Part shown: positions 2,015 through 54,982 of the stretch, piece by piece
Layout: each line of letters begins with the position of its first letter
Position numbering within the stretch: the stretch's first letter is position 1
From: an uncultured Rubrobacteraceae bacterium
Lineage (GTDB): Bacteria > Actinomycetota > Rubrobacteria > Rubrobacterales > Rubrobacteraceae
Direction: 5' to 3'
Length of the DNA: 60,240 nt
Assembly: GCA_902806095.1 (NCBI GenBank)
Contig: CADCVF010000079.1
Coordinates: forward strand, 1-60,240
Program-made: the position numbers and the translations under genes
The notes under the pieces: generated by a model
Seen by the model: only the letters and a program-made list of their open reading frames with translations
The model's database searches: none
Told to the model about the DNA's origin: nothing

Positions 2015-2044
2015 AGCATTTCAGCTAGTCAGCATTTCAGCCAG
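2015..2044. repeat. Octamer-ladder repeat, copy 1
   Basis: Four consecutive 8-bp steps read AGCATT, TCAGCTAG, TCAGCATT, TCAGCCAG. It starts 3 bp after the stop of the glycosyltransferase. It belongs to the dispersed family also seen at 11335, 36763, 38013, 39406, 45341, 49502 and 54846. Confidence 0.8.
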
Positions 2045-2400
2045 GGTTTCACTAAAGTAGGCGCTCTCGTGCCTACGCCTCGGGGCCCTCGTCGGTGCGA
2101 CGGGCCACGCCGATCTGGAGGGTGCCTACAACCATCGCTGCGTTGCCGACGCTCTTGGCATTGCTCGATGCACCCTAGTTCGCGAGTTTGCGACAGCAGT
2201 TCTCCTCTGTGTAGCAGAGAGTACTGGAAGGCTTTGTACGAACTTCCGAGAATTCCCGTTATGCGAAGTTCAGCCTGAATGGTGGGCACTCGCTCGCCTC
2301 AGGCCGAACTAGCGCAACGCCTCAGGCAACGGAGTGCTTGATCCCAGAGCTTCATCCCGACGACGATCGCGGGACTTCTGATTGTTAGCGTACCACTAAA

Positions 2401-2583
2401 TAGGTGCACAGAATGATTGAACAGTCGATCGTTTATATCGACAAACCTGTGTCCATTTATCTTGTGTACCTATCTAGCTTGTTGTCGGCAATGGTCTGCA
2501 ATGGTTGCGCGTTGCTTTCCCACTGCGCGAGATGACGTAACTCGTATCTTCTACAGGGTATTATACAGATTTCTGTGCACCTA
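2401..2583. repeat. 183-bp AT-richer element bounded by 13-bp perfect inverted repeats
   Basis: TAGGTGCACAGAA at 2401-2413 is matched exactly by its reverse complement at 2571-2583. The interior is richer in A/T than its surroundings and contains another related half (TGTGTACCTAT, about 2462-2472). It has no ORF of note. It could be a small MITE-like relic or a pair of regulator sites upstream of the MFS gene at 2746. The rest of 2045-2745 shows no gene I can support. Confidence 0.45.
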
Positions 2584-2745
2584 GGCTCCTTCCGGACTGG
2601 AGCGGTCACGTGAGGCTTGCTGCACGCAGGGGGCTCGCGTACCCTGGGGCTATGATCTTTGCGGCAGTTTCGATAGGCTGCTCCACATGGGTGTCCTTAC
2701 GAGGGCGAATGCGCTTTTGCGCATCCCAGCCGCGCGAACGATAGA

Positions 2746-3909
2746 GTGGGTTTGAAAAGCCCACTTCCGGGTCCCCTGCGGGTGCTTCGGGCAGCGGCCT
2801 TCGTGAGCACGTTCGACCGGTTCACCATCGCCCCGATGCTCGTGACCATAGCGGCGGCCCTCGGGGCATCTCTGGAGGAGGTAGCGGTTGCGGCGAGCCT
2901 GTACTTCTTACTATACGGCCTGATGCAACCCGTGTGGGGAATGCTCTCCGACAGACTCGGGCGGGTGCGAGTCATGCGGCTTGCGCTGCTCGCCGTCGTG
3001 GTACCAGGTCTGCTTTCGGCTCTGGCGCCGAACCTGGCGGTCCTTGTCGCAGCGAGGGCCCTAGCGGGCGGGCTGTTTGCGGCGGTGATACCGTCCGCCC
3101 TCGTCTACATCGGCGACGCTGTGCCGATCTCAAGCAGGCAGAAGGCACTCGCCGACCAGATGGCGGCGAGTGCGATGGCGACCGCAATTGCAACCGCTGC
3201 GGCGGGACTGGCAGCCTACCTGGGCCACTGGCGCCTCGCCTTCGCGGTACCAGCAATCGCCTCTGGGGTTCTTGGCCTGGGCCTCGCCAGCAGGCTGCCC
3301 GAACCGCCGAAGGAGAGCGCTAACGCTGGACCTCTGGCACAGATCGGCCTCGTGGTAAGGCGCCCCTGGGCGATTCTCGTGGTGCTGCTCGCGCTCGTCG
3401 AGGGTGGCGTCATCCTTGGCTTCCTGACCTATCTCGCCCCCTCACTCGAGGCACAAGGCTACGGCGCCGCCGTCGCCGGGCTCGCCGTCGGACTCTACGG
3501 GCTCGCCACGCTCGCCTGGACGTGGGTGTTGAAGAGGGCCACCGACGGTCTCGGTCGTCACGCCCTGATGTTGATCGGCGGCGCCATGCTTGCCTCGGGG
3601 TACGCCGCCGGAGCCCTGGACCGCCATCTTGGGGGTGCAGCGATCGCGGCCGTCCTCGTCGCCGGCGGTTTCGCCTTCATGCACTCGACGCTTCAGACCT
3701 GGGCCACCGAGGTCCTCCCCGAGGCGAGGGCCACCGTGGTCTCGTTCTTCGCCGGTGCCGTGTTCGCCGGCAGCGGCGTCGCAACCGCCGTGGCAGCGCC
3801 GCTCGCAGAGGCCGGTTCCTTCGGGACGCTCTTCGCCATCGCGGCGCTTACCGCCATCCCATTGGGGTTGGTCGGAGGTTTTGCGCGTCTACGCTACGAG
3901 CGGCGATAG
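2746..3909 (+). CDS. MFS transporter
   Basis: A 387-residue, very hydrophobic protein with about 12 predicted membrane segments in two six-helix halves. The loop after helix 2 carries a good MFS motif A (MLSDRLGRVRVM). The protein starts at GTG 2746 and has no signal peptide. It is probably a proton-coupled drug or metabolite exporter in the inner membrane; the substrate cannot be read from sequence. The gene is transcribed alone and is closed by an inverted repeat shared with the convergent DUF1622 gene. The promoter region contains ATTATACAG followed by TCTGTGCACC, which resembles the promoter of the TetR-controlled MFS gene near 31060. Confidence 0.85.
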   Translation: MGLKSPLPGPLRVLRAAAFVSTFDRFTIAPMLVTIAAALGASLEEVAVAASLYFLLYGLMQPVWGMLSDRLGRVRVMRLALLAVVVPGLLSALAPNLAVLVAARALAGGLFAAVIPSALVYIGDAVPISSRQKALADQMAASAMATAIATAAAGLAAYLGHWRLAFAVPAIASGVLGLGLASRLPEPPKESANAGPLAQIGLVVRRPWAILVVLLALVEGGVILGFLTYLAPSLEAQGYGAAVAGLAVGLYGLATLAWTWVLKRATDGLGRHALMLIGGAMLASGYAAGALDRHLGGAAIAAVLVAGGFAFMHSTLQTWATEVLPEARATVVSFFAGAVFAGSGVATAVAAPLAEAGSFGTLFAIAALTAIPLGLVGGFARLRYERR

Positions 3910-3911
3910 CC

Positions 3912-3927
3912 GCATTCGTTCGAATGC
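3912..3927. terminator. Convergent terminator-like inverted repeat
   Basis: GCATTCG and CGAATGC arms with a TT loop lie between the stop of the MFS gene (3909) and the stop of the convergent DUF1622 gene (3982). Its position suits a bidirectional terminator, although the arms are short. Confidence 0.4.
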
Positions 3928-3981
3928 TACCCTACTATATAGCGTCCAGGATTATATGAGGGCAAGAATTCTCTATGCAAG

Positions 3982-5696: not shown

Positions 5697-5705
5697 GCCA
5701 TCAAG

Positions 5706-11334: not shown

Positions 11335-11382
11335 CCAGCACGCTACGCCCTTCGGGCTTCGCTTTTCAGCATTTCAGCCAGG
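11335..11382. repeat. Octamer-ladder repeat, copy 2
   Basis: CAGCACGCT, then a small GC hairpin (GCCC TTC GGGC), then CGCT, TTTCAGCATT, TCAGCC. It lies 28 bp beyond the 3' end of der. It aligns along its whole length with the left half of the copy at 36763. Confidence 0.75.
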
Positions 11383-11409
11383 ACCTGAACATGCGAAAGC
11401 TGACGTGCC

Positions 11410-36756: not shown

Positions 36757-36762
36757 TGTAAC

Positions 36763-36895
36763 ATTTCAGCACGTCAGCACGCTCAGGCCTTGCGGCCTTC
36801 GCTCGTCAGCAATTCAGCACTTCCACTATTCGCGTGGGCGAGCCCTCGCTGACTGGCTGAGAGCCGCCGCAGGCGGCGTGCTGAAGCGCTGACAT
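36763..36895. repeat. Octamer-ladder repeat, copy 3 (two inverted halves)
   Basis: The left half runs ATTTCAGC, ACGTCAGCACG, a GGCC TTGC GGCC hairpin, then TCGTCAGCAATTCAGCAC. The right half is inverted: GCTGACTG, GCTGAGA, a GCCGCC GCA GGCGGC hairpin, then GTGCTGAAGC, GCTGACA. It lies between the PPOX gene and the NUDIX gene. Confidence 0.8.
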
Positions 36896-36900
36896 ACGCT

Positions 36901-37608: not shown

Positions 37609-37616
37609 GGGAACGC

Positions 37617-38012: not shown

Positions 38013-38156
38013 AGCACTTCAGCGTGTCAGCACGCGACCTGACGGGCGCTTGTCAGCATTTCAGCTAGTCAGCTTTCGCAGGGTCGGGTCCTGGCTGACT
38101 TGCTGACAAGGCGGCACAGCCGCCGTGCTGAAGTGCTGACAGGCTGAGGCCTCAGA
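38013..38156. repeat. Octamer-ladder repeat, copy 4 (two inverted halves)
   Basis: Left half: GCACTTCAGCGTGTCAGCACG, CGACCTGACGGGCG core, then TTGTCAGCATTTCAGCTAG and TCAGC. Right half, inverted: GCTGACTTGCTGACAA, GGCGGC ACA GCCGCC hairpin, GTGCTGAAGT, GCTGACAG, GCTGA. It begins one base after a stop codon. Confidence 0.8.
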
Positions 38157-38223
38157 CGCCGATGCGTGCTGAAAGTGTTCCTGAACCCACCGCCGAGCGC
38201 GTCACCTGATAGATTCTCTGACC

Positions 38224-39402: not shown

Positions 39403-39405
39403 GGT

Positions 39406-39456
39406 AGCACTTCAGCAACCAAGGGGCTGACAGCTTAACGCTGACCTGCTGACAGC
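39406..39456. repeat. Octamer-ladder repeat, copy 5 (degenerate)
   Basis: AGCACTTCAGCAACC, then GGGGCTGACAG, CTTAACGCTGACCT, GCTGACAG. It is shorter and less regular than the other copies, 3 bp past the stop of the MFS gene. Confidence 0.65.
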
Positions 39457-39583
39457 CTACTCGAAATAGGCGGTCACTCTTCCTCACTTACCGTCCGCGC
39501 GGAAGATTCCAAGAAAGGCCTCCATGGCTCGACTTCGTAACGGTTGTCGTAACGTTTGGAAGACGATAGTACTGTAGAGTGGG

Positions 39584-40831: not shown

Positions 40832-40986
40832 CCCACTCCCACTAATGGCCACCTGGCATACAAAAATAGTCCATTTGGGGGATTTGCTGCACCTTATTTG
40901 GGAGTATGGTGCCAGTTGTCGAAAGGGAACGTTCGGGAGACGGGACTCCCGTATGGTGACGTTGTGACGCAAGGAACAAGAGGGCA

Positions 40987-43913: not shown

Positions 43914-44006
43914 AGCAGTTCGCGTAGGGGCCCAGACCCTTTGCGAGCCATCCGCTAGAGGAAACGGACGCGTGGGGACCAGCCCCCACAGATATTCCCG
44001 ACCAAA

Positions 44007-44024
44007 ATGGGGGCATGCCCCCAT
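44007..44024. terminator. Perfect 18-bp palindrome after the response regulator
   Basis: ATGGGGGCA and TGCCCCCAT are exact complements. The site is 93 bp after the response-regulator stop and 116 bp before the RTX-like gene, so it is probably a terminator hairpin. The T-run after it is poor (GACTTTGGG). Confidence 0.45.
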
Positions 44025-44139
44025 GACTTTGGGATACCTCCTCCCTTATGGTGCTCTGTGGTACTGATAAAGGGGCGCCGTGAGCCCGGACTCACTACAC
44101 TACTCACCCCGCCCACTTACACGGAAGGCGGGCCTCTTC

Positions 44140-45297: not shown

Positions 45298-45306
45298 TTC
45301 TTTACA

Positions 45307-45338
45307 CCGTGCCTGAGGCTCGAGTGCCTCAGGCACGG
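45307..45338 (+). terminator. Strong hairpin terminator-like structure
   Basis: Perfect 13-bp arms CCGTGCCTGAGGC and GCCTCAGGCACGG with a 6-nt loop begin 9 bp after the RTX-like gene stop. There is no U-tract, so the termination mode is uncertain. Confidence 0.6.
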
Positions 45339-45340
45339 CG

Positions 45341-45376
45341 AGCATCTCAGCATTTCAGCCAGTCAGCATTTCAGCA
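45341..45376. repeat. Octamer-ladder repeat, copy 6
   Basis: AGCATC, TCAGCATT, TCAGCCAG, TCAGCATT, TCAGCAAG in perfect 8-bp register. It directly follows the hairpin after the RTX-like gene. Confidence 0.8.
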
Positions 45377-45475
45377 AGAACAAGAAACTGACCAACTGGT
45401 GCGACTTGGCTGTGGCCCTCGTACCTTGTAAGCTACTGGGAGGTCAGGCGTTCGGCTAGACAAGGGAGAGGTGCG

Positions 45476-45700
45476 ATGGACAAAAAGTCAGACAGGGACA
45501 TCGAGAAGGTCTACTCGACCTCGGAGTTCGTGGCGAAGCTTAGAAGGCTCGCCGACGCGCTGGAGGCGGGCGAGCGATTCGAGATACAGGTTGCCGGGGA
45601 GAGGGTCTACGTGCCCGCCCGTGCCGAGTTCAACGTCGAGCACGAGCGGGAGGGTGATGAGGAGGAGATCGAGTTCCAACTCAAGTGGTCCCACTCGTAA
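45476..45700 (+). CDS. Amphi-Trp domain protein
   Basis: 74 residues from ATG 45476 behind GGGAGAGGTGCG. The sequence STSEFVAKLRRLADALEAGE then RFEIQVAGERVYVPARAEFN and the end EEEIEFQLKWSHS match the amphi-Trp domain (TIGR04354), small proteins whose name comes from the C-terminal 'E-L-E-I-K-W' strand. They are cytoplasmic with unknown biochemical function, often next to similar short genes. The gene is monocistronic and convergent with the toxin gene. Confidence 0.85.
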   Translation: MDKKSDRDIEKVYSTSEFVAKLRRLADALEAGERFEIQVAGERVYVPARAEFNVEHEREGDEEEIEFQLKWSHS

Positions 45701-45745
45701 GTTCTTCCGTGCCGATCACCGCACCATCGAGGGCCCAGGGGTTTC

Positions 45746-46075
45746 TCAGAGACCGGGAAGTCCGAACAGTCTGGCGAACTCGGCGTAGGCGTCGCCCTCG
45801 TCTCCTGCTGACCTGATACCCACGTACACCACCTCGGCTACCTGCTCACCGTTCTCCAGCGTGAGCAGCCTCCAGATGATCCTGTAACGCCCACTGTGGA
45901 TACCACGGAAACTCTGTAGGGGTCGCCGGAGCGGATACCCCGCGCTCGAAGGCGCGGCCTCGATGGTCGCCATCTTGCGCACCGCCTGCTTCTGGATCTT
46001 GGCCGGGAGTTCTAGCAGGCTCTCAACCCCCGTCCTGCTGACTACAAGCTTCCGTCTAGGGTTCGTACCCTTCAA
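45746..46075 (-). CDS. RelE/ParE-family toxin (second module)
   Basis: 109 residues. The core KLVVSRTGVESLLELPAKIQKQAV, then YPLRRPLQSFRGIHSGRYRI and IWRLLTLENGEQVAEVVYVG, is the RelE/ParE fold with the conserved Arg-Tyr-Arg-I strand. It has a longer C-terminal tail (IRSAGDEGDAYAEFARLFGL) than the first module's toxin. It starts 20 bp inside the end of its antitoxin gene, which is upstream on the same strand. It is probably an mRNA interferase or gyrase-type poison held in check by the antitoxin. Confidence 0.82.
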   Translation of the reverse strand: MKGTNPRRKLVVSRTGVESLLELPAKIQKQAVRKMATIEAAPSSAGYPLRRPLQSFRGIHSGRYRIIWRLLTLENGEQVAEVVYVGIRSAGDEGDAYAEFARLFGLPGL

Positions 46076-46385
46076 CGTCGTCTACCTCCGGGATCATACC
46101 CTCGACCTCGGAGATCGAGTAGGTTCGCGCCTGATCCCCGCCGGACGATGTCCTCAAGGCATCCATCGCCCGCTCGTCGTCCAGGATCTTCATGGTCTCA
46201 GCCTCCCCGACCAGTTCGAGGTAGGCATCCTGAAGCCGGCGGAACGCGTCGGCGTTGATCACGAGGGCCTCACGGCCCTTCGTTCCCTTGATGATGAACG
46301 TGCGCCCCTTCTCGACCTCCTCGAGGACGTGGGCCATCTCGCTCCTAGCCTCGGCCACGCCGAGCACCTTAGGGAGCTTCAACAT
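46056..46385 (-). CDS. Phd/YefM-family antitoxin (second module)
   Basis: 109 residues. The N-terminal DNA-binding part is VLGVAEARSEMAHVLEEVEK, GRTFIIKGTKGREALVINAD, typical of Phd/YefM. The C-terminal tail is acidic and disordered (ARTYSISEVEGMIPEVDDVE) and would cover the toxin. It starts at ATG 46385 and overlaps the toxin gene by 20 bp. A 16-bp perfect palindrome 134 bp upstream is a good autoregulatory site. Confidence 0.85.
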   Translation of the reverse strand: MLKLPKVLGVAEARSEMAHVLEEVEKGRTFIIKGTKGREALVINADAFRRLQDAYLELVGEAETMKILDDERAMDALRTSSGGDQARTYSISEVEGMIPEVDDVEGYEP

Positions 46386-46518
46386 ATGCGGCTCCTTTCC
46401 GCGCCGATGCCTCGATTGACCGCCGAGTGAGCGTAGCCCCGATCAAACCCCCGGGTTGGGTAGTGCGCTCGGCTAGACGCACGTCTCGGTTAACCGTTCG
46501 AGTAGACGTACTTATATT

Positions 46519-46534
46519 GTACATAATTATGTAC
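46519..46534. promoter_or_regulatory. 16-bp palindrome, probable antitoxin operator
   Basis: GTACATAA followed by TTATGTAC is perfectly symmetrical in an otherwise GC-rich region. On the minus strand a TATAAG-like -10 lies beside it (within 46508-46518), pointing at the antitoxin gene. The 46386-46790 stretch otherwise holds no gene that I can support. Confidence 0.5.
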
Positions 46535-46790
46535 GTACTGCAAGGCGCACCCGAAATCATAACTTCCGTGAACATCTGGTACAGCAAGCACAAGGACCCC
46601 AGAAGGGAACAACTTCTCTTGGCTTGTGGCGACATCCGTGGTGCCTGCCTGGAGGAGTTCGGCGGTAACGGCTCGTTATCTTCGGGACGAGGAGCTTAGG
46701 AAAGGTTAGCCCTTCTTAACCGGCCGTTGCCCGATCTGTTACGCCCGTCCGCTACAGTGCCCTCCAGGCTACGGACGGGAGGTATCTTCT

Positions 46791-48404
46791 GTGGGAGAGA
46801 GGACGAGGCTTGGACTCGGGGTAATCGGGGTCGCGTTGGCGCTTGGTGGGTTGGGAGACCTCCTGCTGCGCGCTACGCCGTGGGGGATCAACTTCCTCAT
46901 GTGGGTAACGGCCCTTGTCGGCCTGGGCGTCTTGCTCGCGAAGTGGGGGCGCGTGGGTAGCGGAGGAGAGGGAAAGTGGCTGGTCTTCGTTGCGGTCGTC
47001 TTCGCCGCCGGGGTCGTTCTGCGTGATTCTCCCGTGGTTGTGCTCCTCGATGTTCTAGGGGTTCTGATCTCGCTCTCCCTTGCCGTGTGGCTTGGACGAA
47101 GCGGAAGTCTGCGGCGCGCCGGTATCTGGGACTACATTCTGGGTGGGGTCTACACCGGCGCCCTCACCTCCGCTGGACCGCTACCTGTGAGCATAGTCGA
47201 CATAGAATGGCGCGAAGCAGTGCGCGGACGGCGGAAGGGGCAGGCGTTGGCGGTGTCGCGGGGCGTCTTACTCGCTGCCCCGCTCTTGCTACTTTTCGGC
47301 ACGCTCCTTGTGGCTGCCGACGCCATCTTCGAAAGGCTCGTGCTCGACATCTTCGGCTTCGACCTCGCCGAGGTCTTCTCGCACCTCTTCCTCACTTGTT
47401 TTTTCGCCTGGATCACGGCTGGCCTGCTCTGGGCCGGGCTGATGGCGCGCGTCCCCGAGAACTTCGCGATCCCACGTCCTAGAGTACTCTCGCTCGGCAT
47501 CGTCGAGGTAGGGATAGTGCTCGGTCTCCTCGACCTCATGTTCCTTACCTTCGTGGTGATCCAGGTCCGCTACCTGTTCGGCGGCGCGGGACGCGTGGCC
47601 GCCACCGCTGTCCTGACCTACGCCGAGTACGCCCGCCGCGGATTCTTCGAGCTGGTCACCGTAACCGCACTCGCGCTCCCCCTCTTGCTCATCGCCCACT
47701 GGTTGCTCAGGACCGAGAACCGCGCCCACGAGCGACTGTTCAAGGCGCTGGCCGGGATCATGGTCGGCCTGCTCTTCATCGTGGTCGCCTCCGCGCTGCA
47801 GCGGATGTACCTCTACCAACAAGAGTTCGGCCTGACCGAGTTGCGCCTCTACACTTCTGTGTTCATGCTCTGGATCTCCACCGTCCTCATCTGGTTCATC
47901 CTTACCGTACTGCGCGACAGACGCGACCGCTTCGCGTTCGGAGCCCTCGTCGCCGGCTTCGCCGCCATCTTCGCGATCAACGCCATGAACCCCGATGCCT
48001 TCATAGCAAGCACCAACATAGAGCGCATGGAAGAAGGAAAACGTTTCGACGCCTACTATCTGATCACCCTGAGCGCCGACGCCGTGCCCGTGCTCGTCGA
48101 ATCTCTCCCCGAGATAGGCGATAACCGCCTGTGGAAAGACCACACTGTAGAGCAGGAGCTTGTATATCGCTGGGACACGAGAAAGGCAGACTGGCGCACG
48201 TGGAACCTGGGCCGATCGAGAGCCCGCCAGTCGGTCAAGAGCTACCTCGAAGAGCAGTCCGGACGAGCACTAGTGATGTCCGGCGCTGCCGCGCAGCACC
48301 CAGATAGGGCGTTTATGCACCCTCCCGACCGAGTTATCCACAAGATGTTGTGGATAAGATACCCAAATCGGGGGATAAGTGAATCAAGTGTAACAAGCGG
48401 TTAA
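46791..48404 (+). CDS. DUF4173 family membrane protein
   Basis: 537 residues from GTG 46791 with GGGAGG upstream. About 11-12 membrane helices: LGVIGVALALGGLGDLLLRA, FLMWVTALVGLGVLLAKWG, FAAGVVLRDSPVVVLLDVLG, then GVLLAAPLLLLFGTLLVAAD, DAIFERLVLDIFGFDL, and later LTYAEYARRGFFELVTVTAL and MYLYQQEFGLTELRLYTSVF. The last two blocks are diagnostic of DUF4173. The C-terminal 100 residues after NAMNPDAFIASTNIERMEEG form a globular tail. The function is unknown. Two consensus DnaA boxes lie inside its last codons. Confidence 0.85.
   Translation: MGERTRLGLGVIGVALALGGLGDLLLRATPWGINFLMWVTALVGLGVLLAKWGRVGSGGEGKWLVFVAVVFAAGVVLRDSPVVVLLDVLGVLISLSLAVWLGRSGSLRRAGIWDYILGGVYTGALTSAGPLPVSIVDIEWREAVRGRRKGQALAVSRGVLLAAPLLLLFGTLLVAADAIFERLVLDIFGFDLAEVFSHLFLTCFFAWITAGLLWAGLMARVPENFAIPRPRVLSLGIVEVGIVLGLLDLMFLTFVVIQVRYLFGGAGRVAATAVLTYAEYARRGFFELVTVTALALPLLLIAHWLLRTENRAHERLFKALAGIMVGLLFIVVASALQRMYLYQQEFGLTELRLYTSVFMLWISTVLIWFILTVLRDRRDRFAFGALVAGFAAIFAINAMNPDAFIASTNIERMEEGKRFDAYYLITLSADAVPVLVESLPEIGDNRLWKDHTVEQELVYRWDTRKADWRTWNLGRSRARQSVKSYLEEQSGRALVMSGAAAQHPDRAFMHPPDRVIHKMLWIRYPNRGISESSVTSG
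48334..48357. promoter_or_regulatory. Pair of inverted DnaA-box consensus sites
   Basis: TTATCCACA (48334-48342) and TGTGGATAA (48349-48357) are both perfect matches to the DnaA box TTATNCACA, in inverted orientation 6 bp apart, and could also form a 9-bp hairpin. A near-match TTATGCACC is at 48313-48321. They sit inside the C-terminal codons of the DUF4173 gene. Confidence 0.5.
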
Positions 48405-48532
48405 CTCGAGGCATCAGGTTTCAGGGGTCGGGATTTTTCGGAGTTGAAGTGCTGCCGTGCTACGCATGTGGAAAAGAGTCGTCCAGACTATACAATTAGT
48501 CCGTCTAAGGGATGCCGACAAGAGGTGAAAGA

Positions 48533-48835
48533 GTGATAACCGAGGAGCGCGTACAGGACCAGTTGCGGAACGTTATAGACCCTGAGATCGGGATGGACCT
48601 CGTGGAGCTAGGCCTGATCTACGACGTCGGCGTGCATGATGAGGGCCGCCACGTCGATGTCACCTTCAGCCTCACCAGCCCCATGTGCCCTGTTGGGGAT
48701 ATGATCCAGGAGCAGGTCGAGACCGAGGCGCTCTCCATAGAGGGGGTCGAGACCGTGAACGCCCAGCTCACGTTCGATCCAATGTGGAGCCCGGAGATGA
48801 TGAGCCCCGCCGCCAAGCTGTTCTTCGGCCGGTAA
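48533..48835 (+). CDS. MIP18/SufT-like metal-sulfur cluster assembly factor
   Basis: 100 residues from GTG 48533 (VITEERVQDQLRNVIDPEIG) behind AGAGGTG; ATG 48512 is seven codons longer. The DUF59/MIP18 fold is clear: DPEIGMDLVELGLIYDVGVH, then VDVTFSLTSPMCPVGDMIQ with the conserved Cys, and FDPMWSPEMMSPAAKLFFG. These proteins help mature Fe-S proteins. The 'PMWSP..MSPAAK' ending is typical of the stand-alone actinobacterial and archaeal SufT type. No suf genes are nearby. Confidence 0.9.
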   Translation: MITEERVQDQLRNVIDPEIGMDLVELGLIYDVGVHDEGRHVDVTFSLTSPMCPVGDMIQEQVETEALSIEGVETVNAQLTFDPMWSPEMMSPAAKLFFGR

Positions 48836-48858
48836 GCACGGTAGCCTGGCCGACTACA

Positions 48859-48901
48859 CAGTCCCGGTGAAACCCGAGAGGGAGGATACAGGCCGGGACT
48901 G
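48859..48901 (+). other. Unassigned structured element downstream of sufT-like gene
   Basis: CAGTCCCGG (48859-48867) pairs perfectly with CCGGGACTG (48893-48901), and inside is a small CCC-GAGA-GGG hairpin with a GNRA tetraloop and the unpaired AGGATACAGG. It could be a terminator or a small structured RNA. I could not match it to a known riboswitch class. Confidence 0.4.
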
Positions 48902-48945
48902 CCCAGCGTCTCGGCTCAACTCCCGGTAAGGGACCATCTCCGAGG

Positions 48946-49212
48946 TCAAGTAGGCTGCAACCCCGTTAGAGGGTTCCGGTCTCGCTGTAGCTCATCGGTC
49001 ATATACAGAAGATCCTCCCAAGCCTCACGTTCGATGGCCTCCTCGGTCATGCCCCTGGCGCTGAAGCGCGCCACAATGGTATCGTCAGAGCGCCGGAGCG
49101 CGGGCGCGTCAGGGTCGCTACTAAGATCCAAGCGGTAGCCTTCGGGCGGCTTCGGTGGTCTCCATGTTCCTCCCACACAATTGCCTACGTAGCCAGAGGG
49201 CGTCCGGAGCAC
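48946..49212 (-). CDS. Small hypothetical protein
   Basis: 88 residues, not recognised. The central part, WRPPKPPEGYRLDLSSDPDA, PALRRSDDTIVARFSARGMT and EEAIEREAWEDLLYM, is compositionally a real protein with an acidic helical end. It has no signal, membrane segment or Cys motif. The start at 49212 is uncertain because the N-terminal residues (MLRTPSGYVGNCVGG) look less protein-like; a later start is possible. It is isolated on the minus strand. Confidence 0.5.
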   Translation of the reverse strand: MLRTPSGYVGNCVGGTWRPPKPPEGYRLDLSSDPDAPALRRSDDTIVARFSARGMTEEAIEREAWEDLLYMTDELQRDRNPLTGLQPT

Positions 49213-49388
49213 CCCGAGCAGACATCAGCCTTTCTTCATACGCTGTAAATTTACAACGTAAAGACAGGGGTCTGCAGTTTAGCTGCTCAAGGGTTTCACA
49301 GCGGTTTTTCGGTAGCGTTGTAGGACAAGTCTGCAACCTGGCAGGTCGCTACTGGTAAGCGATTCGAAGCTCCCGCCGCGTAGAGGAT

Positions 49389-49404
49389 TCCCGCTTGCGC
49401 GGGA
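49389..49404. repeat. Short REP-like palindrome
   Basis: TCCCGC and GCGGGA arms with TTGC loop, preceded by GGAT and followed by GTAACA. It is of the 'GGATTCCCGC...GCGGGAATGACA' type of small interspersed palindromes common in many bacterial genomes. Confidence 0.4.
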
Positions 49405-49435
49405 GTAACAAAGTCCCATCATGCCGGAAGCAAGT

Positions 49436-49467
49436 GGGTAGGAGCCGCGCTCGCGCGGCTCCTACCC
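49436..49467. terminator. Very strong hairpin in the 49213-49530 gap
   Basis: 14-bp perfect arms GGGTAGGAGCCGCG and CGCGGCTCCTACCC with a CTCG loop. It lies 64 bp beyond the end of the DUF4239 gene on its 3' side. It may be a terminator or an interspersed repeat; the loop and arms carry no U-tract. Confidence 0.5.
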
Positions 49468-49501
49468 TGCGGAAGGGATTCTCCGGAATTCGCAATGACA
49501 A

Positions 49502-49535
49502 GCTGAAGTGCTGACTTGCTGAAATGCTGACTAGC
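49502..49535. repeat. Octamer-ladder repeat, copy 7
   Basis: GCTGAAGT, GCTGACTT, GCTGAAAT, GCTGACTA in exact 8-bp register. The TAG stop codon of the DUF4239 gene (49531-49533 on the minus strand) lies within the last unit. Confidence 0.85.
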
Positions 49536-50340
49536 TATGCTTGAGGTCGCTAAGGTCGCTGGTTTCGAATCTCTCCAGTACTAGCTCGAAGGCTTCTGTG
49601 CCGATGCGGGCACCGCCGGAGAAGGGATATTCTATGGCGCCGATGGTAAACAGTACCAGCCCGATCACCGCTGCCAGGGTGAGGACCATCAGCCTGTGCG
49701 CCCACGTGTTCTCCAGGCCGAACAGGTAGGTGAAGCTCACCGCCGCTATCCCCCCGAAGATCAGGACGGCCCAGAGGACCGCGGGGATGCCCTCTTCGGC
49801 TGCGACCAGGCGCATCCTCCTTGCGTCGGCGAGTCTCTGGACCTGATCCAGTCCTTCTGCGTAGAGTTGCTCATCAGCCTTGGTGTGTGGCTCGATCTCC
49901 TGCACGCTCGCCCGGATATCATCGATGAGGCCCCACCCACGTGAAGTCTCTTGAGAACTCTTCAGGGAAGGCGTTCGCCCCTGCTGCATTAGGGGCCACC
50001 CTACGTTGACCACCTCTTCTACGTAGGATCGGCACAACTCCTGGAGCTCTCGCCCTTCGGGTTCAGGGAGCTGATGAGCGAGCCAGAAGATCTCGGCCAC
50101 GGCGTTGGCCTCTTGCTCGACCGTTTCACTAGCCGCCCTGTACTCCTCCCACACGGCGATGACCACGAGCGCCAGCAGCACGGCGTAGATCACCCCCAGC
50201 GCCGCGTAGATGAAGCCGGCCACGTCGTTGTGTGGCTGGCGCGAGTCGGCGGGCACGAGGCGCTGCACCAACTCGAGCCCGGCGAGCGCGACGAGGCATA
50301 TCCCGCCGATCACAAGTACGCCAAAAACTACAGTGAGCAG
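49531..50340 (-). CDS. DUF4239 (bestrophin-like) membrane protein
   Basis: About 269 residues. Two N-terminal helices (LTVVFGVLVIGGICLVALAG and AGFIYAALGVIYAVLLALVV) and a long helical cytoplasmic or extracytoplasmic middle (AASETVEQEANAVAEIFWLA, HQLPEPEGRELQELCRSYVE) precede two more helices (VLWAVLIFGGIAAVSFTYLF, LMVLTLAAVIGLVLFTIGAI). This is the DUF4239 pattern, function unknown. The first helix extends upstream of GTG 50313, and GGGGGAGG at the right distance points to a CTG start at 50340. The stop codon is inside an octamer repeat. Confidence 0.78.
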   Translation of the reverse strand: MLTVVFGVLVIGGICLVALAGLELVQRLVPADSRQPHNDVAGFIYAALGVIYAVLLALVVIAVWEEYRAASETVEQEANAVAEIFWLAHQLPEPEGRELQELCRSYVEEVVNVGWPLMQQGRTPSLKSSQETSRGWGLIDDIRASVQEIEPHTKADEQLYAEGLDQVQRLADARRMRLVAAEEGIPAVLWAVLIFGGIAAVSFTYLFGLENTWAHRLMVLTLAAVIGLVLFTIGAIEYPFSGGARIGTEAFELVLERFETSDLSDLKHS

Positions 50341-50611
50341 TAGAGGACCTCCCCCTTCGTGTCATGAGCGGAACAAGGATGATACCTACAGGCGCAACCT
50401 GAGTCCAGTAACTTCACAGGTGCCAGTCTGGGGCCATACGGACTTCCGGCGGCATTCTTTCTTCCAAGGTCCTGTGCCTCGTCCCGCGTCCAGGTGTCTG
50501 ACCTGCTGCGTTGGAGGCTCGGCTTACTCTGATGGCAGGTCTGACTGTGTTTTGCGAACGTTTGCGTCTGCACGTGTGGCCCCACGTGATGTGCGGCTCT
50601 ATGATGCGTGC

Positions 50612-51367
50612 ATGGGTATCAGGGGCATTATGTTGGATCTCGACGGAACCCTATTCGTTGGAGGAGAGCCCGTAGCCGGAGCGAGGGAGGCGGTGGAGGC
50701 TCTGAAGGCTTCGGGGCTTGTGGTCCGGTACGTGACGAACACGACCAGGATGCCGCGCCGCGCGGTGGTCGAGAGGATGAAGGCACTCGGGTTCGTGACC
50801 GAGGAGGGCGAGGTCTTCACACCGGCGTGGATGGCCTCGCGCCTGATCGGGGGCAGAAGCTGTCTCGCCCTGGTGGACGAGTCCCTACACGAGGACCTCG
50901 GTGGCGCGCGGCTCACCGAAGATTCCCCCGAGTTCGTCCTCGTCGGAGACCTGGGAGAAGGCTTTACCTACGCGCGTCTCGACGCCGCATTTCGATGCAT
51001 CATGGAAGGGGCTGATCTCGTGGCGCTGCAGAAGAACCGCTACTGGCAGAATAGGGGCGGGCTCTCTCTGGATGCCGGGCCTTTCGTCGCGGCCCTCGAG
51101 TATGCGAGTGGGAAAAAGGCCGTAGTCGTCGGCAAACCAGAGGAGAGCTTCTTCCGGATCGCGCTGGAAGATATGGGCCTTCAGGCCGACGAAGTAGCCA
51201 TGGTCGGTGACGATGCGGAGGCGGATGTGGCAGGCGCGAAGAAGGCCGGGCTCTCGGGAATACAGGTCAGGACTGGAAAATGGCGACCCGGTGGCGATGT
51301 GGGCGAAGCGGATATCGTACTCGACAGTGTCGCTGCTCTACCCAGGGCTCTGGAAGGAGAGAGATGA
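50612..51367 (+). CDS. HAD-superfamily IIA hydrolase (phosphatase)
   Basis: 251 residues from ATG 50612 (MGIRGIMLDLDGTLFVGGEP). The HAD motifs are complete: the nucleophile Asp in LDLDGTLF, motif II VTNTTRMPRR, the Lys in VVGKPEESFFRIAL, and the acidic motif IV MVGDDAEADVAGAKKAGLSG. The IIA cap sits in the middle. The group includes phospholysine/PPi phosphatase (LHPP-like) and NagD-like enzymes. The substrate here is unknown. The stop overlaps the yjbQ start by 4 bp, so they are coupled. A CTG start is not needed here. Confidence 0.9.
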   Translation: MGIRGIMLDLDGTLFVGGEPVAGAREAVEALKASGLVVRYVTNTTRMPRRAVVERMKALGFVTEEGEVFTPAWMASRLIGGRSCLALVDESLHEDLGGARLTEDSPEFVLVGDLGEGFTYARLDAAFRCIMEGADLVALQKNRYWQNRGGLSLDAGPFVAALEYASGKKAVVVGKPEESFFRIALEDMGLQADEVAMVGDDAEADVAGAKKAGLSGIQVRTGKWRPGGDVGEADIVLDSVAALPRALEGER

Positions 51368-51762
51368 AGATCATCGACATACCGGTCGAGACCGGCGAGC
51401 GTTACGAGCTGGTCTCGATCACGGACGAGGTCAAGCGGGCCGCAAAGGATGCCGGCGTTGCCGAGGGCATTTGCGTCATCTCATCGACGCACACGACCGC
51501 GGCCGTGACGGTCAACGAGGACTATGATAGGGATGTGCCCAGGGACCTGGCCTCCGCCTGCAGGGCATTCCTCGATGCCCTGGACGTGCGCTTCGAGCAT
51601 GCCGAGGGCAACAGCGACTCCCACTTCCTGACCAGTCTTTTCGGGCAGTCGCAGACTCTGTTGGTAAGAGACGGAGAGCTGGATCTCGGTCGCTGGCAGG
51701 GCGTTTTCCTTGCCGAGTTCGACGGGCCGAGGAGCAGAACCGTCACGGTGGCGGTCTCGTAG
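51364..51762 (+). CDS. yjbQ: YjbQ/UPF0047 family protein
   Basis: 132 residues from ATG 51364, overlapping the HAD gene stop (ATGA). The family core is complete: GICVISSTHTTAAVTVNEDY, EGNSDSHFLTSLFGQSQTLL and GRWQGVFLAEFDGPRSRTV. YjbQ proteins have weak thiamine-phosphate synthase activity in vitro, but their real role is unsettled. The length is typical. Confidence 0.93.
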   Translation: MKIIDIPVETGERYELVSITDEVKRAAKDAGVAEGICVISSTHTTAAVTVNEDYDRDVPRDLASACRAFLDALDVRFEHAEGNSDSHFLTSLFGQSQTLLVRDGELDLGRWQGVFLAEFDGPRSRTVTVAVS

Positions 51763-51875
51763 CCGACTTCCCGAGGCTGCTGTTTAGTTAGGACCCAACT
51801 TTCGGTAAGATGGGTCTGCGGGCCACGGGCTCGGAGGCCGTGGCCGGTCGTTACTAGTCTTTGTGGGAGGCTTGT

Positions 51876-53267
51876 ATGAACCGATTGGTGAAGGGCGGGC
51901 TGGTGCTGGGCGGGCTGGTCTTGGGGCTCGGTGCCTTGCGGCGGACGCTCAACCCTACGCCCCGTTACGCCCCGTGGGAGAAGCCTCCCTACGGCGAGTT
52001 CGAGAAGAAAGTCTTGATCCTCGGCGGGGGGTTCGGAGGGTATACGGCTGCTACGGACCTGTGCAGGCTCACCAGGAGCCGCGATGACGTTGGGGTCCTG
52101 GTCATAGCGCGCGACAACTTCTTCACCTTCTGGCCGATGGTACCCGGGATCGTCAGCAGCGACATCGACTCGCGCAACGTCGCCCAGCCCTTGAGGCGCG
52201 CACTCATCCTCGCCGGCGCTAGCTTCAGGAGGGCCAGGGTCACGGGTGTAGACCCGGACCGAAGAGTCGTCCAGGCCGCCGGCGGTCTCGAGTTCCCTTA
52301 CGATCAGCTCGTAATCTCTTTGGGCGGGCAGCCGAACTTTTTCGGCATCCCCGGCGTCGAGGAGCACAGCTTGACAATGAGGGGGGTCGAAGACGCCGAA
52401 CGCGTCCGCAACCGCGTCATAGAGCGCTTCGAGGAAGTCTCCCTGATCCGGGACGATGTGCCCGAGTCCAAGCTGACTTTCGTGGTCATCGGTGGTGGGG
52501 CGACAGGGGTCGAGGTGGCGTCCGAGATCCACACCCTCGTCCACGAGAACCTAGCCCCCGACTACCCGAATATAGATCCTTACCGCGTAAGGATCTACCT
52601 CATAGAGGCACTTCCCAACATACTGCCCGAGCTCGACCCCGCCCTGCGGCGCGCAGCCCGTATCAGGCTCCTCAACGAGCGTATCGAAGTGCTCACCGGC
52701 GCTATGGCGGAGGAGATTACAGGCGATTGCGTCAAGCTGAAGGGCGGCAAGGAGATAGATACGGAGAACGTGATCTGGACCGCTGGGAACCGCCCGAACC
52801 AGACGGTCCACGACCTCGGGCTGCCCTACGACCAGCGAACAGGCATAAAGGTAGACCTCACCCTCAGGGTTGAGGATCACAGCGACATCTGGGCAATAGG
52901 TGATTGTGCCGCCGTGCAGGACGTGCACCGGGAAGATGGCGGTATAGTGCCGCCAACCGCCCAGGCTGCGATCCAGCAGGGTCACCTGGCCGCCCGCAAC
53001 GTGCTCAAGACCATAGACGGTAATGGGGATCTCGGAGAGTTCGAGTACAAGCCGCTTGGGCAGCTCGTCGAGCTCGGGAGCGACTTCGCCGTCAACGAGG
53101 TGATGGGCGTAAGGTTCACGGGAGCCCTCGCGGCCGTTTTCTGGCGTATGGCCTACCTGGTGCGCCTCAACAGCCCCCAGAGCAAGGTGCGGGTCGCCGC
53201 GGATTGGATTGTGGGCATCTTCCTGCGGCCTGCCGTCACCCAGATTCGGAGCACCTCCGACGAATAG
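51876..53267 (+). CDS. FAD-dependent pyridine nucleotide oxidoreductase, NDH-2-like
   Basis: 463 residues from ATG 51876. An N-terminal hydrophobic segment (GGLVLGGLVLGLGALR) probably anchors the protein to the membrane. The FAD motif is VLILGGGFGGYTAATDL, the NAD(P) motif is FVVIGGGATGVEVASEIHTL, and the second FAD contact is SDIWAIGDCAAVQDV. ANALOGUES of type II NADH:quinone dehydrogenase end, as here, in an amphipathic C-terminal region (FWRMAYLVRLNSPQSKVRVA). It likely passes electrons from NADH to quinone without pumping protons. The gene stands alone. Confidence 0.88.
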   Translation: MNRLVKGGLVLGGLVLGLGALRRTLNPTPRYAPWEKPPYGEFEKKVLILGGGFGGYTAATDLCRLTRSRDDVGVLVIARDNFFTFWPMVPGIVSSDIDSRNVAQPLRRALILAGASFRRARVTGVDPDRRVVQAAGGLEFPYDQLVISLGGQPNFFGIPGVEEHSLTMRGVEDAERVRNRVIERFEEVSLIRDDVPESKLTFVVIGGGATGVEVASEIHTLVHENLAPDYPNIDPYRVRIYLIEALPNILPELDPALRRAARIRLLNERIEVLTGAMAEEITGDCVKLKGGKEIDTENVIWTAGNRPNQTVHDLGLPYDQRTGIKVDLTLRVEDHSDIWAIGDCAAVQDVHREDGGIVPPTAQAAIQQGHLAARNVLKTIDGNGDLGEFEYKPLGQLVELGSDFAVNEVMGVRFTGALAAVFWRMAYLVRLNSPQSKVRVAADWIVGIFLRPAVTQIRSTSDE

Positions 53268-53371
53268 GAGGACTTCATAAAGGGACCTTGAGGCGTGGCC
53301 GCAAAGGTGCTAGTTTGACCTTGACTGAAAGAGGAGCAGATGCAACGGGACAGCATGACAGGTGATCAGAG

Positions 53372-53953
53372 ATGGGGGTTCGCTTGAGTCTCGCCAACCA
53401 GCTCACCCTGATCCGGCTAGTAGCTGTCGTGCCCGTGATGGGCGCGCTGTACCTGCCTTTCGAGTGGGCACGTCCCGTCGCCCTCGTTCTGTACGCAGCT
53501 GCGATCCTCACCGACTACCTCGACGGGATCATCGCCCGTCGCAACAACGAGGTTACTGGTTTCGGCAAGCTGATGGATTCCATAGCCGACAAGGCTCTCA
53601 TTGTCTCCCTGTTCTTCGCGCTCGTCGGGGAGGGCTCGATGGCGGCTTGGATGGCCGCTATCATGGTTATTCGGGAGTTCGCCGTGACAGGACTAAGGAT
53701 GGTCGCCCTCGAGGCCGGGGAGGTCATCGCCGCGAACCGGTGGGGTAAGGCCAAGATGAACGCCCAGAGCCTCGCCGTCTTCATACTACTGCTTGGCAAG
53801 CCAGGGGCGGACGGGTGGCAGGGGGTCGTCTCCCAGATCGGGTGGTGGGTGATGCTCGTCGCCGTGGTGCTTACCGTGCTCTCGGGCTGGTCCTATCTCA
53901 AGGACACGCCGCGGATTCTGTCTATTACCTCCAAGCGAGATCAGAGACTCTAA
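53372..53953 (+). CDS. pgsA: CDP-diacylglycerol-glycerol-3-phosphate 3-phosphatidyltransferase
   Basis: 193 residues. The CDP-alcohol phosphotransferase motif D-X2-D-G-X2-A-R-X8-G-X3-D-X3-D is exact in YLDGIIARRNNEVTGFGKLM with DSIADK after it. About five membrane helices surround it. The N-terminal SLANQLTLIRLVAVVPVMGA is the usual PgsA start. It makes phosphatidylglycerol-phosphate at the inner membrane. A homologue using another alcohol cannot be fully excluded, but this N-terminal sequence favours PgsA. The next gene starts 22 bp downstream. Confidence 0.92.
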   Translation: MGVRLSLANQLTLIRLVAVVPVMGALYLPFEWARPVALVLYAAAILTDYLDGIIARRNNEVTGFGKLMDSIADKALIVSLFFALVGEGSMAAWMAAIMVIREFAVTGLRMVALEAGEVIAANRWGKAKMNAQSLAVFILLLGKPGADGWQGVVSQIGWWVMLVAVVLTVLSGWSYLKDTPRILSITSKRDQRL

Positions 53954-53975
53954 AAGCTGTAGAATCACGCCCCAT

Positions 53976-54818
53976 ATGGAGGGCAGCAACGACAAACGCC
54001 TGAGGCCGGACGAGGTCGAAATGATCTTGCGTCACGCCTCGGAGTTGAACTCTCGCCGGTGGACGCGTGGCTCCTACGACACCTCGTCGGTCTCTCCTGA
54101 GGTCCTCGTGCAGGTGGCCGCTGCGGCCGGCATCCCCGAGCAAGACGTACGCCGAGCCATGTGGGATATGGCATCGGAGAAGACGGCCGAACCGCGCTCG
54201 TTCGCCCGCAAGTTATACGGCCCTGCCCGTCTGCGCGTCGTGCGGGAAGTCGGGCGCCCCGCAGAGAGTATCCGAGATTATCTCGAAGGGCTCTTGCGCC
54301 TCCAACAGGGCCTCAAGCTCAGGCGCAAGACGGAGGTCGGCTCTTTGTGGGACCCTGGCGACGAGCTCGGGGTCGTCCGAAGGACGCTGGACTTCTCTGG
54401 GGAAAGGACCCTGCTCAAGGCCAGGTTGGTCGAACTGCGCGTGGAGGGTTTCGGCGAAGAGCGATGCGAGGCCAACCTGACTGCCGACCTCTCAAACCAA
54501 CGCGGTGAGTACCTCTCGGTCGCCGGCATCCTCGGGGCCACGCTGGCCGCCCTGTTTATTCTCGCCGGGATGCAGAGCCCGCCCTTCTTTCTCGGCGTCC
54601 TGCCCGCGCTCGCGGCGCCGGCCCTCGGGTTCAGGTTCGCCTACGGCAGGGCTTCCCTGGAACTGAGACGCGCCCTCGAGGACCTCCTCGACGCCGCCGA
54701 AGAAAGCCAGCCTCAGGAGGAGCCTCCTGAACGCGGCGACCGTCCTCCCGGCCAGATACAGGGCCTGAAACCCATTCCAAGATTCGCCCCTGACAGGAGC
54801 AAGCGGGCAAAGCCCTAG
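53976..54818 (+). CDS. Hypothetical membrane-anchored protein
   Basis: 280 residues, family not recognised. Residues 1-70 form a helical N-terminus (RLRPDEVEMILRHASELNSR then VSPEVLVQVAAAAGIPEQDV and RRAMWDM). The middle (GPARLRVVREVGRPAESIRD to RTLLKARLVELRVEGFGEER) is a beta-rich domain. Two helices near 180-220 (YLSVAGILGATLAALFILAG and FFLGVLPALAAPALGFRFAY) suggest membrane insertion, followed by a proline- and charge-rich tail. It is probably co-transcribed with pgsA and ends just before an octamer repeat. Confidence 0.65.
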   Translation: MEGSNDKRLRPDEVEMILRHASELNSRRWTRGSYDTSSVSPEVLVQVAAAAGIPEQDVRRAMWDMASEKTAEPRSFARKLYGPARLRVVREVGRPAESIRDYLEGLLRLQQGLKLRRKTEVGSLWDPGDELGVVRRTLDFSGERTLLKARLVELRVEGFGEERCEANLTADLSNQRGEYLSVAGILGATLAALFILAGMQSPPFFLGVLPALAAPALGFRFAYGRASLELRRALEDLLDAAEESQPQEEPPERGDRPPGQIQGLKPIPRFAPDRSKRAKP

Positions 54819-54845
54819 TTTGCAAAGAGGTCAAAACCTCTTTGC

Positions 54846-54982
54846 AAGCATTTCAGCCAGTCAGCACTTCAGCATTTCAGCATCGTCTTCCGAAGAGTCT
54901 CGCCCCGTCGCTCGGGCGACGCCAGCAGCAAGGCTGAAGTGCTGAGAGCCGCGAAGCGGCGTGCTGACTGGCTGAAGTGCTG
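54846..54982. repeat. Octamer-ladder repeat, copy 8 (two inverted halves)
   Basis: Left: AGCATTTCAGCCAG, TCAGCACT, TCAGCATT, TCAGCATC. Right, inverted: GCTGAAGT, GCTGAGA, GCCGC GAA GCGGC hairpin, GTGCTGACTG, GCTGAAGT, GCTG. The two halves can base-pair extensively. It lies between the hypothetical gene and recQ. Confidence 0.85.

Follow-up and report, generated by a model that had tools for sequence, protein, structure and literature searches.

STRR sequences of cyanobacteria are heptamer arrays that lie mostly in non-coding DNA. Intergenic heptamer repeats of the sequence TAACTGA are described from Beggiatoaceae, cyanobacteria and Bacteroidetes (PMC4679880). The BOX elements of Streptococcus pneumoniae, together with RUP and SPRITE, are characterised as modular, palindromic and intergenic, with an inner module that varies in number, and BOX as over-represented between convergent genes and thought to be mobile (PMC3049150). 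REPINs and BIMEs, in the features covered by PMC3116915 and PMC3733652, share with the repeats reported here short REP-like hairpins, inverted pairs round a variable spacer, compensatory base change, an extragenic location and high copy number.

The window considered in this study, a stretch of 60,240 nucleotides from a Rubrobacteraceae bacterium, carries eight loci built on ladders of the pentamer TCAGC. It is suggested here, with a probability of about 0.6, that these loci are copies of short, non-autonomous, palindromic and modular mobile repeats, similar in kind to BOX elements and REPINs, which have lodged at stop codons.

Results

The ladder family

The window contains 25 matches to TCAGCN3TCAGC where 0.25 are expected, a number reached in none of 100 shuffles, and all 25 sit within the eight loci that the initial annotation had recognised as 8-bp ladder repeats. 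Its further statement that each follows the stop of one or more genes is also correct, the distance from the end of the ORF being 0-43 nt. The 8-bp register was confirmed by the first sample of contigs from the same genome taken with the window, in which a spacing of 8 bp occurs 99 times and one of 7 bp five times, and the proposal of a dispersed family by the genome as a whole, which has 859 matches as against 9 for the reversed control. A density of 39 clusters in 432 kb was taken from that first batch and the window only, because other contigs, namely some of those from the relative G008 and part of the second batch from the own genome, were selected for ladder or synteny hits. The own genome bin seems to contain a second strain. 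Rfam models at gathering score gave no match in the window.

From the outside in, an element consists of an edge AGC and a ladder of oriented TCAGC pentamers separated by 3-nt spacers (2-nt in one relative, where the register is mostly 7 bp), followed by a centre, on the far side of which the same ladder is inverted. Hairpin spacers are optional and REP-like, most of them starting with ACG or CCG. Centres comprise 20 nt of one type, a short A/T-rich sequence, or 40-130 nt, some forming small families. One-armed copies also occur, and elements measure about 30-270 bp. The pentamer is constant in sequence and direction, with TCAGC pointing inward in every one of the 85 close pairs (within 200 bp); a single pair of the opposite order, 200-400 bp apart, was seen in G008. 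The spacers vary from one neighbour to the next, with a tendency for T-ending and G-ending ones to take turns (45 of 60 neighbour pairs in the own genome). Certain centres, one outer hairpin and a tail recur among copies. The halves of the hairpins covary, and the earlier view that bases change while pairing is kept was thus upheld. The idea of a GNA/GNA internal loop was dropped, being true of only 23 of 132 hairpins. Several features of MITEs are present, as the elements are dispersed, have inverted ends, are shorter than a few hundred bp and have no coding capacity, but in place of a single fixed terminal repeat they carry ladders at their ends.

Loci of the window

Three loci are one-armed ladders. 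That at 2015..2041 on the plus strand reads AGC-ATT-TCAGC-TAG-TCAGC-ATT-TCAGC and lies 3 nt past the TGA (2009-2011) of ORF 482-2011. The ladder at 45341..45375, also on the plus strand, is separated from the stop of ORF 44080-45297 by an outer perfect hairpin (45307..45338). On the minus strand, the ladder at 49496..49536 is in the GCTGA orientation, and its spacer CTA (49531-49533) is itself the TAG stop of a minus-strand bestrophin-like ORF (49531-50313). Four simple ladders had been counted previously, a description which does not fit the loci at 11335 and 39406. The former comprises a hairpin of the usual type (about 11339-11365) and, at 11366..11403 on the plus strand, a ladder of two TCAGC units, a 20-nt centre of the recurring type (11379-11398) and a single inverted GCTGA, 6 nt from the end of a minus-strand GTPase (EngA-like) ORF at 11410-12714. 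The latter (39406..39452) is a very short two-armed copy with AGC-ACT-TCAGC, a 9-nt centre and three GCTGA, beginning 3 nt past the TGA at 39400-39402.

The remaining loci are larger two-armed elements. At 36760..36898 a left hairpin spacer (36779-36805), a centre (36819-36847) and a right hairpin spacer (36861-36879) can be distinguished. The element at 38013..38172, immediately past the TAG at 38010-38012, has a hairpin spacer at 38032-38052, a 20-nt centre at 38074-38093 and two hairpin spacers in its right half (38107-38126 and 38148-38167). The element at 54847..54981 is made up of a left arm (54847-54881), a centre (54882-54932) and a right arm with a hairpin spacer (54946-54962). Two inverted halves, each enclosing a hairpin, had been claimed for all three; this holds for 36763 and 38013 and does not for 54846, where only the right half has one. 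Outer perfect hairpins precede the ladders at 45341 and 54846; the second, TTTGCAAAGAGGT..ACCTCTTTGCA (54819..54846), lies immediately past the TAG at 54816-54818 and is also found ahead of other ladders.

Placement relative to genes

In samples of the own genome, G008 and G006, with genes called by an in-house hexamer caller, only 1 of 215 clusters lies inside a gene. Clusters are enriched between convergent gene pairs and depleted between divergent ones, the latter holding 12 of 85 classified clusters in the own genome, 7 of 63 in G008 and 2 of 43 in G006. Placement at gene 3' ends, as initially proposed, is therefore a strong bias across genomes and not a rule, since 21 of 191 classified clusters fall between divergent genes. 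At 5 nt or less from a stop codon there are 85 element sides against 37.9 expected from uniform placement within the room left by the element, whereas gene starts have 6 against 9.6; overall, edges in the three samples are two to three times commoner at stop codons than uniform placement predicts. Of 81 clean edges that face a gene end, 54 fall between positions -6 and +5 relative to the stop.

Folding and termination

The two-armed copies of the window fold on both strands, with z from -4.4 to -8.3, whereas z lies between +0.74 and -0.83, no improvement on shuffles, for all three one-armed ladders and for the hairpin and ladder of 11335. A consensus scan of 36000-55999, which sees the T-tract type only, does not support the earlier option of a terminator: it found 9 sites against 12.5 in shuffles, none of them overlapping a ladder. 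One terminator-like site lies 13 nt past the element at 54846.

Comparison among relatives and other phyla

Within the genus the number of TCAGCN3TCAGC-type matches ranges from 1 to 859, with up to several hundred copies per genome, and two genomes, G007 (1 match) and G003 (4), are nearly empty of the 8-bp pattern. Comparison with G008, which is about 92% identical, revealed two clean presence/absence sites, many same-site remodellings, and orthologous gene pairs with no element or a quite different one. The syntenic place in G008 is without the ladder 45341..45375, the adjoining stretch there also being replaced; at the site of 54847..54981 the outer flanks are kept and the centre (about 120 nt) and units are different. 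Conserved orthologous elements exist as well (L345/L323 and L334/L366), with units differing by steps of 8. The flanks share TAG/TA-like letters, 3.0 versus 2.39 (n=19, with the same ortholog pair entering twice). This value was reached by 2 permutations in 1000, by which a target-site duplication is weakly supported.

Oriented ladders are also present in Chloroflexota. A scan across phyla found at least 115 stretches; among the 80 listed, 40 have a single spacer type and are plain microsatellites, and 40 have several. Outside Rubrobacter, the plus-then-minus order was seen among the listed stretches in L054, L075, L101, L107 and L130 (Chloroflexota, three MAGs) and in Granulicella (L119). The order is reversed in an Opitutae (L057) and a Limisphaerales (L122) stretch, so that the polarity is not universal.

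Search for a mover

A RAYT-like partner, sought with the RAYT model in ten genomes, was not found above the curated cut-off in the six Rubrobacteraceae among them (G000, G002, G006, G008, G014 and G020), although two of the four ladder-bearing Chloroflexota genomes tested (G062 and G063) have one. A Y1_Tnp search of the own genome and 60 relatives placed Y1 transposases within the genus only in the own genome and G008, the two richest in 8-bp ladders; G006, which is 97% complete and carries more ladders than any other, gave no match to Y1. By NCBIfam, the three Y1 proteins of the own genome and G008 (L051 and L168 among them) are IS200/IS605 TnpA, scoring 127-136 bits (cut-off 55), and TnpB adjoins two of them; against the RAYT model they score 25-30 bits where the cut-off is 80. 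On the genomes searched, RAYT was rejected as the mover in Rubrobacteraceae. Terminal tags are rare in the hairpin spacers, with GTAG in 13 and CGTC in 21 of 224 (within 12 nt of the end, either strand, TCAGC flanks included). No autonomous copy was seen in the sampled contigs, where the two gene-sized plus/minus intervals both hold ORFs which read as housekeeping-type. An IS630/Tc1 helper was also set aside: DDE_3 (IS630-type) counts (G000 10, G001 9, G008 8, G002 4, G004 2, G005 1, G006 1, G003 0, G007 0) track ladder counts only loosely, with one in the ladder-richest G006, and the link is suggestive at most.

Discussion

Of the four options offered initially, a non-autonomous element fits best, in view of the differences in count, the presence/absence sites and the remodelling. 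The non-random ladders, the polarity of 85 to 0, the covariation, the recurring centres and outer hairpin, and the fit to stop codons also speak for mobility. Against it stand the failure to find a helper, the weakness of the target duplication, the conserved orthologs, the clusters between divergent genes and the fact that only two sites are cleanly empty. A trans-acting enzyme would recognise the oriented pentamers or a folded strand and insert the element at a TAG/TA-like target; in this GC-rich genome stop codons would supply most such targets. Selection may purge insertions close to promoters, and slippage and recombination among ladders might lead to the gain, loss or exchange of units, hairpins and centres.

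It is unlikely, in our opinion, that the element was instead selected by the host as a 3'-UTR structure, a long interrupted hairpin past the stop that protects the mRNA 3' end or helps to end transcription, mainly between convergent genes. The tight fit to stop codons, the convergent enrichment, the folding of two-armed copies and the hairpin covariation would all suit such a role; however, the one-armed ladders fold no better than shuffles, terminator-like sites are not in excess, orthologous gene pairs do without the element or have another, and G007 and G003, with 1 and 4 matches of the 8-bp pattern, are of the same genus. A constant pentamer amid variable spacers in a register of 7 or 8 would also be expected if it were the putative site of a host DNA- or RNA-binding protein with a nucleoid, replication or post-transcriptional function. 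This appears less probable still, as a fixed host system is not expected to differ so extremely in count among close relatives, nor to have recurring non-ladder centres, hairpins and presence/absence, and the pentamer is equally explained by a mobile element's own binding sites.

As tested, the elements of Rubrobacteraceae are not REPINs, and a REPIN system whose RAYT was missed or lost, already weakened there by the TnpA identity of the Y1 proteins, the absence of a Y1 match in G006 and the rarity of both tags, is a very doubtful explanation, even with REP-like hairpins in inverted pairs round a variable centre, RAYTs in two Chloroflexota genomes and Y1 transposases confined within the genus to the own genome and G008. 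Hardly credible is simple polymerase slippage of the STRR/LSSR type. Plain 7-8-bp arrays do occur in many genomes and the conserved orthologs differ by steps of 8, but slippage does not yield inverted arms, hairpins, recurring centres or empty sites, is contradicted by the polarity, and would not make neighbouring spacers differ and alternate.

If mobile repeats are the correct reading, the family might further represent a class of small mobile DNA in its own right, found in no fewer than two phyla and, in Rubrobacteraceae, not dependent on RAYT, for which a putative dedicated enzyme reads oriented TCAGC ladders, whether the register is 7 or 8 bp, and uses stop codons as insertion sites, centres being swapped between the same two flanks; this we propose only tentatively, as possible rather than probable. 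The polarity would allow a bolder form, in which the enzyme extends the two 3' ends of a break unit by unit and the ladders grow inward round filler. If the reading as mobile repeats is true, these genomes have a copy-rich bacterial family outside the RAYT/REPIN scheme, whose recognition code (pentamer sequence and direction fixed, spacing 7 or 8) and near-exact target, the stop codon, are legible from sequence, and by which hundreds of genes can be re-dressed at their 3' ends within a genus with coding sequence untouched. The closely related genomes offer a place to ask which enzyme moves the elements.

None of the outcomes that the initial annotation named as refuting it was seen: the placement is non-random, the hairpins covary and no matching repeat family appeared in the literature searched. 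STRR was rejected as the same architecture: in a Trichormus plasmid, of which 50 kb were covered, too small a sample for a general statement, three short STRR-type arrays were seen, none with an inverted partner, and STRR/LSSR units are identical and head-to-tail where ours have variable spacers and inverted partners. TAACTGA, which is TCAGTTA on the other strand, comes near to the 7-bp TCAGC ladder, and both form short intergenic ladders in scattered phyla; as far as they are described in PMC4679880, however, the TAACTGA repeats are direct (one inverted set is reported), have identical units without hairpins or centres, and lie mostly just upstream of start codons. REPINs and BIMEs have a RAYT, for which none above cut-off was found in the six Rubrobacteraceae genomes searched, and GTAG/CGTC tags, which are rare in the ladder family; pentamer ladders form no part of the scheme set out in PMC3116915 and PMC3733652. 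In behaviour the family is likened to BOX, which is likewise modular, palindromic, intergenic, biased to convergent genes and thought mobile; duplications are described for BOX and RUP (PMC3049150), whereas the signal in the ladder family is weak. Compared with BOX as presented there (PMC3049150), the ladder family is distinguished by its own sequence and modules, its oriented 7-8-bp ladder, its exchangeable centres and its near-exact fit to the stop codon.

Ladder architecture and abundance

The ladders are built of TCAGC pentamers with 3-nt spacers, giving an 8-bp register; a second arm, where present, carries the pentamer inverted (GCTGA) beyond a centre. The window contains 25 matches to TCAGCN3TCAGC, where shuffled sequence has 0.25, and all of them fall inside the eight loci (2015, 11335, 36763, 38013, 39406, 45341, 49502 and 54846). 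The source genome as a whole (3.83 Mb, 85 contigs) holds 859 matches against 9 for the backwards pattern, and in a first sample of it, together with the window, successive pentamers lay 8 bp apart in 99 cases and 7 bp apart in 5. Abundance is specific to lineage, eight relatives of the same genus having 1, 4, 4, 14, 16, 147, 406 and 525 matches. One of these, G006, keeps the pentamer but takes 7-bp steps more often than 8-bp steps (963 seven-bp matches, with 4 in the control, and 406 eight-bp matches) and is the richest in ladders when both registers are summed. The architecture is shared by the Rubrobacteraceae MAGs JACCSM01, JACCTS01 and JADDPV01, among the matches listed from a four-unit-ladder scan of named genomes.

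Among 229 spacers from 795 kb of the source genome the commonest were ATT (60), ACT (48), TAG (21), CAG (18), TTG (14) and ATG (13). The last base was T or G in 216, and T-ending and G-ending spacers alternated in 45 of 60 neighbouring pairs; 20 contigs of the close relative G008 gave the same spacer picture. Successive TCAGC were separated by a longer gap, of 15-30 nt, in 139 cases in the source genome, 101 in 60 contigs of G008 and 47 in G006, and 104, 84 and 36 of these gaps, respectively, begin with ACG or CCG, the start of the hairpin type. The window has six such hairpin spacers spread over three elements. The initial annotation placed hairpins in both halves of all three, which is true of 36763 (two) and 38013 (three), whereas 54846 has one, in its right half. 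Locus 11335 is more than a simple ladder, as it also contains a hairpin, a recurring 20-nt centre and one inverted pentamer.

We catalogued 37 centres from the source genome, 25 from G008 and 24 from G006. Exactly 20 nt was the length of 17 of the 62 from the first two genomes and of none of the 24 from G006, and all 17 agree with one consensus, read in one direction or the other, at a minimum of 12 of its 20 positions; once further G008 DNA was included there were 27 gaps of this length, of which 21 fit the consensus and 6 do not. The remaining centres either are short stretches rich in A and T or measure 40-130 nt, some in groups of 2-5 similar sequences. Centres of about 90-110 nt form small families with paired ends (e.g. 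L036 5514-5758, L313 2930-3118 and L335 7173-7348) and are possibly structured RNAs or what is left of mobile ends. A recurrent subfamily shares a fixed outer hairpin, in many cases along with a similar tail; the pattern for it matched 22 times, some of the matches being ordinary hairpin ladders.

Hairpin covariation and polarity

The suggestion that pairing is kept while the hairpin bases change was borne out by permutation. Across the source genome and G008 (127 of 132 distinct hairpins, 5 of rare length being dropped, with swaps made within equal length), own halves formed 5.14 pairs against 4.43 for swapped partners (sd 0.07; maximum of 1000 permutations 4.65). The G006 result of 5.16 against 4.67 (sd 0.13; 19 of 30 hairpins) is weaker, since the highest permuted value was also 5.16. 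On both strands, folding of the three large window elements gave z-scores of -4.4 to -8.3; no gain over shuffles was seen for three one-armed ladders or for the part of 11335 made up of hairpin and ladder.

A TCAGC array is followed within 200 bp by a GCTGA array 37 times in the source genome, 25 times in 20 contigs of G008 and 23 times in G006. The reverse order was found in none of these samples within 200 bp, and once, in G008, at 200-400 bp. As a hairpin with GCTGA facing inward would function equally well, we infer that something reads both the sequence and the direction of the pentamer.

Placement at stop codons

As first noted, all eight window loci lie beyond stop codons; the distances are 0-43 nt. 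In a wider sample (795 kb of the source genome, 60 contigs of G008 and 400 kb of G006, with 90, 81 and 44 clusters), one of 215 cluster midpoints fell inside a called gene. The 191 classifiable clusters, in the same order of genomes, were convergent in 33, 18 and 22 cases (13.8, 10.6 and 6.8 expected from intergenic bases), divergent in 12, 7 and 2 (23.3, 21.6 and 9.5) and tandem in 40, 38 and 19 (47.9, 30.8 and 26.7). Sides facing a gene end lay within 5 nt of it in 34/106, 33/74 and 18/63 cases, against 17.1, 12.1 and 8.7 under a uniform expectation, and sides facing a gene start in 4/64, 1/52 and 1/23, against 5.8, 1.5 and 2.3.

Clean outer edges in the source genome and G008 face a gene end in 81 of 128 cases; measured from the stop codon's end, 54 of these 81 lie at -6 to +5 nt. 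Another 18, many of them separated from the stop by an outer hairpin, lie at 12-44 nt, and the other 9 are more distant. Perfect outer hairpins of mostly unrelated sequence stand between stop codon and ladder at 45307-45338 and 54819-54846 in the window, near 13460 in L035, near 10750 in L037 and near 820 in L309. In some copies the stop codon comes wholly or partly from the element itself (AGC-TAG-TCAGC, or T + AGC). TAG makes up 54 of the 85 stops touched, compared with 627 of 1373 over all called genes, an excess that is partly the element's own TAG. In the samples of both genomes TAG outnumbers each of the other stop codons (310 TAG, 279 TGA and 100 TAA in called genes over 600 bp of L031-L050, L308-L386 and the window), which is unusual for bacteria.

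Probable mobility and the search for a mover

G008 is about 92% identical to the source genome, and two sites differ cleanly by presence and absence: L035 13378-13502 of the source genome is filled and its G008 counterpart empty, and L353 about 3818-3951 (reverse strand) of G008 is filled where L031 of the source genome is empty. The L035 outer hairpin belongs to the inserted unit. At many other sites, such as 54846, the flanks are kept while units, hairpins and centre are replaced; a few conserved orthologs gain or lose 8-bp units (L345/L323, L334/L366). Between the gene pair flanking 54846, a ladder is absent from G003 and G005, where the gap is 70 bp, and from G002; G006 has a 7-bp ladder, G004 scattered pentamers and G007 a run of N. 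Shared short flanks averaged 3.0 against 2.39 when permuted (2/1000; n=19, one ortholog pair being counted twice), which suggests that a target duplication may accompany insertion.

A second ladder family, of CAGGC in 7-bp units with inverted arms, was seen at L353 4193-4345 (reverse strand) and L036 7351-7391, where the other genome carries TCAGC pieces or a TCAGC element. Two contigs of the source genome (L036 and L047) overlap over several kb at 86-90% identity, so this assembly probably holds a second strain.

No RAYT above the cut-off was found in six Rubrobacteraceae genomes, and no Y1 match in G006, which is 97% complete, despite its wealth of ladders. Two Y1 proteins of the source genome and one of G008 were considered as RAYTs and rejected, being TnpA of IS200/IS605; two of the three adjoin TnpB, and the 3.3-kb loci of the two from the source genome contain no 8-bp ladder. 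Two points tell against dismissing RAYTs altogether: within the genus, Y1 proteins occur only in these two genomes, which are also the two richest in 8-bp ladders, and RAYTs above the cut-off occur in two of four Chloroflexota genomes tested. We therefore claim independence from RAYTs for the ladders of Rubrobacteraceae only. A link between DDE_3 counts and ladders is suggestive at most.

Distribution and relationship to known repeats

Genomes outside Rubrobacteraceae were chosen because the four-unit-ladder scan matched them. Six Chloroflexota MAGs have 343, 104, 285, 225, 77 and 57 matches (control 9, 8, 13, 2, 15 and 5). Counts elsewhere are 92 in Granulicella (control 8), 142 in a Limisphaerales MAG (control 9) and 274 in a Bacteroidota MAG, whose control is high at 104. 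In the Granulicella genome (L119), arrays of TCAGC(G/A)AG reach about 12 units, and some are arranged as inverted pairs. Among the matches listed, polarity resembles that of Rubrobacteraceae in five Chloroflexota stretches from three MAGs. L057 and L122, both from Verrucomicrobiota, show the opposite order, so these two stretches are another arrangement. In an uncontrolled count of eight Chloroflexota arrays, an open frame of at least 240 bases ends 3-16 nt before five of them and 40 nt before a sixth; the other two have no such frame.

With the anatomy, polarity, placement, covariation, abundance, empty sites and remodelling described here, the ladders of Rubrobacteraceae fit a description as modular, palindromic, non-autonomous mobile repeats. 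Such repeats would be moved in trans by a putative enzyme, perhaps with a preference for TAG or TA at stops; purifying selection may act upon them, and exchange could take place through the ladders. Searches of open-licence PMC papers turned up no description of a TCAGC-ladder family. We liken the family to known systems and do not assign it to them: pneumococcal BOX elements (PMC3049150) are nearest in behaviour, and REPINs (PMC3116915, PMC3733652) are nearest in shape.
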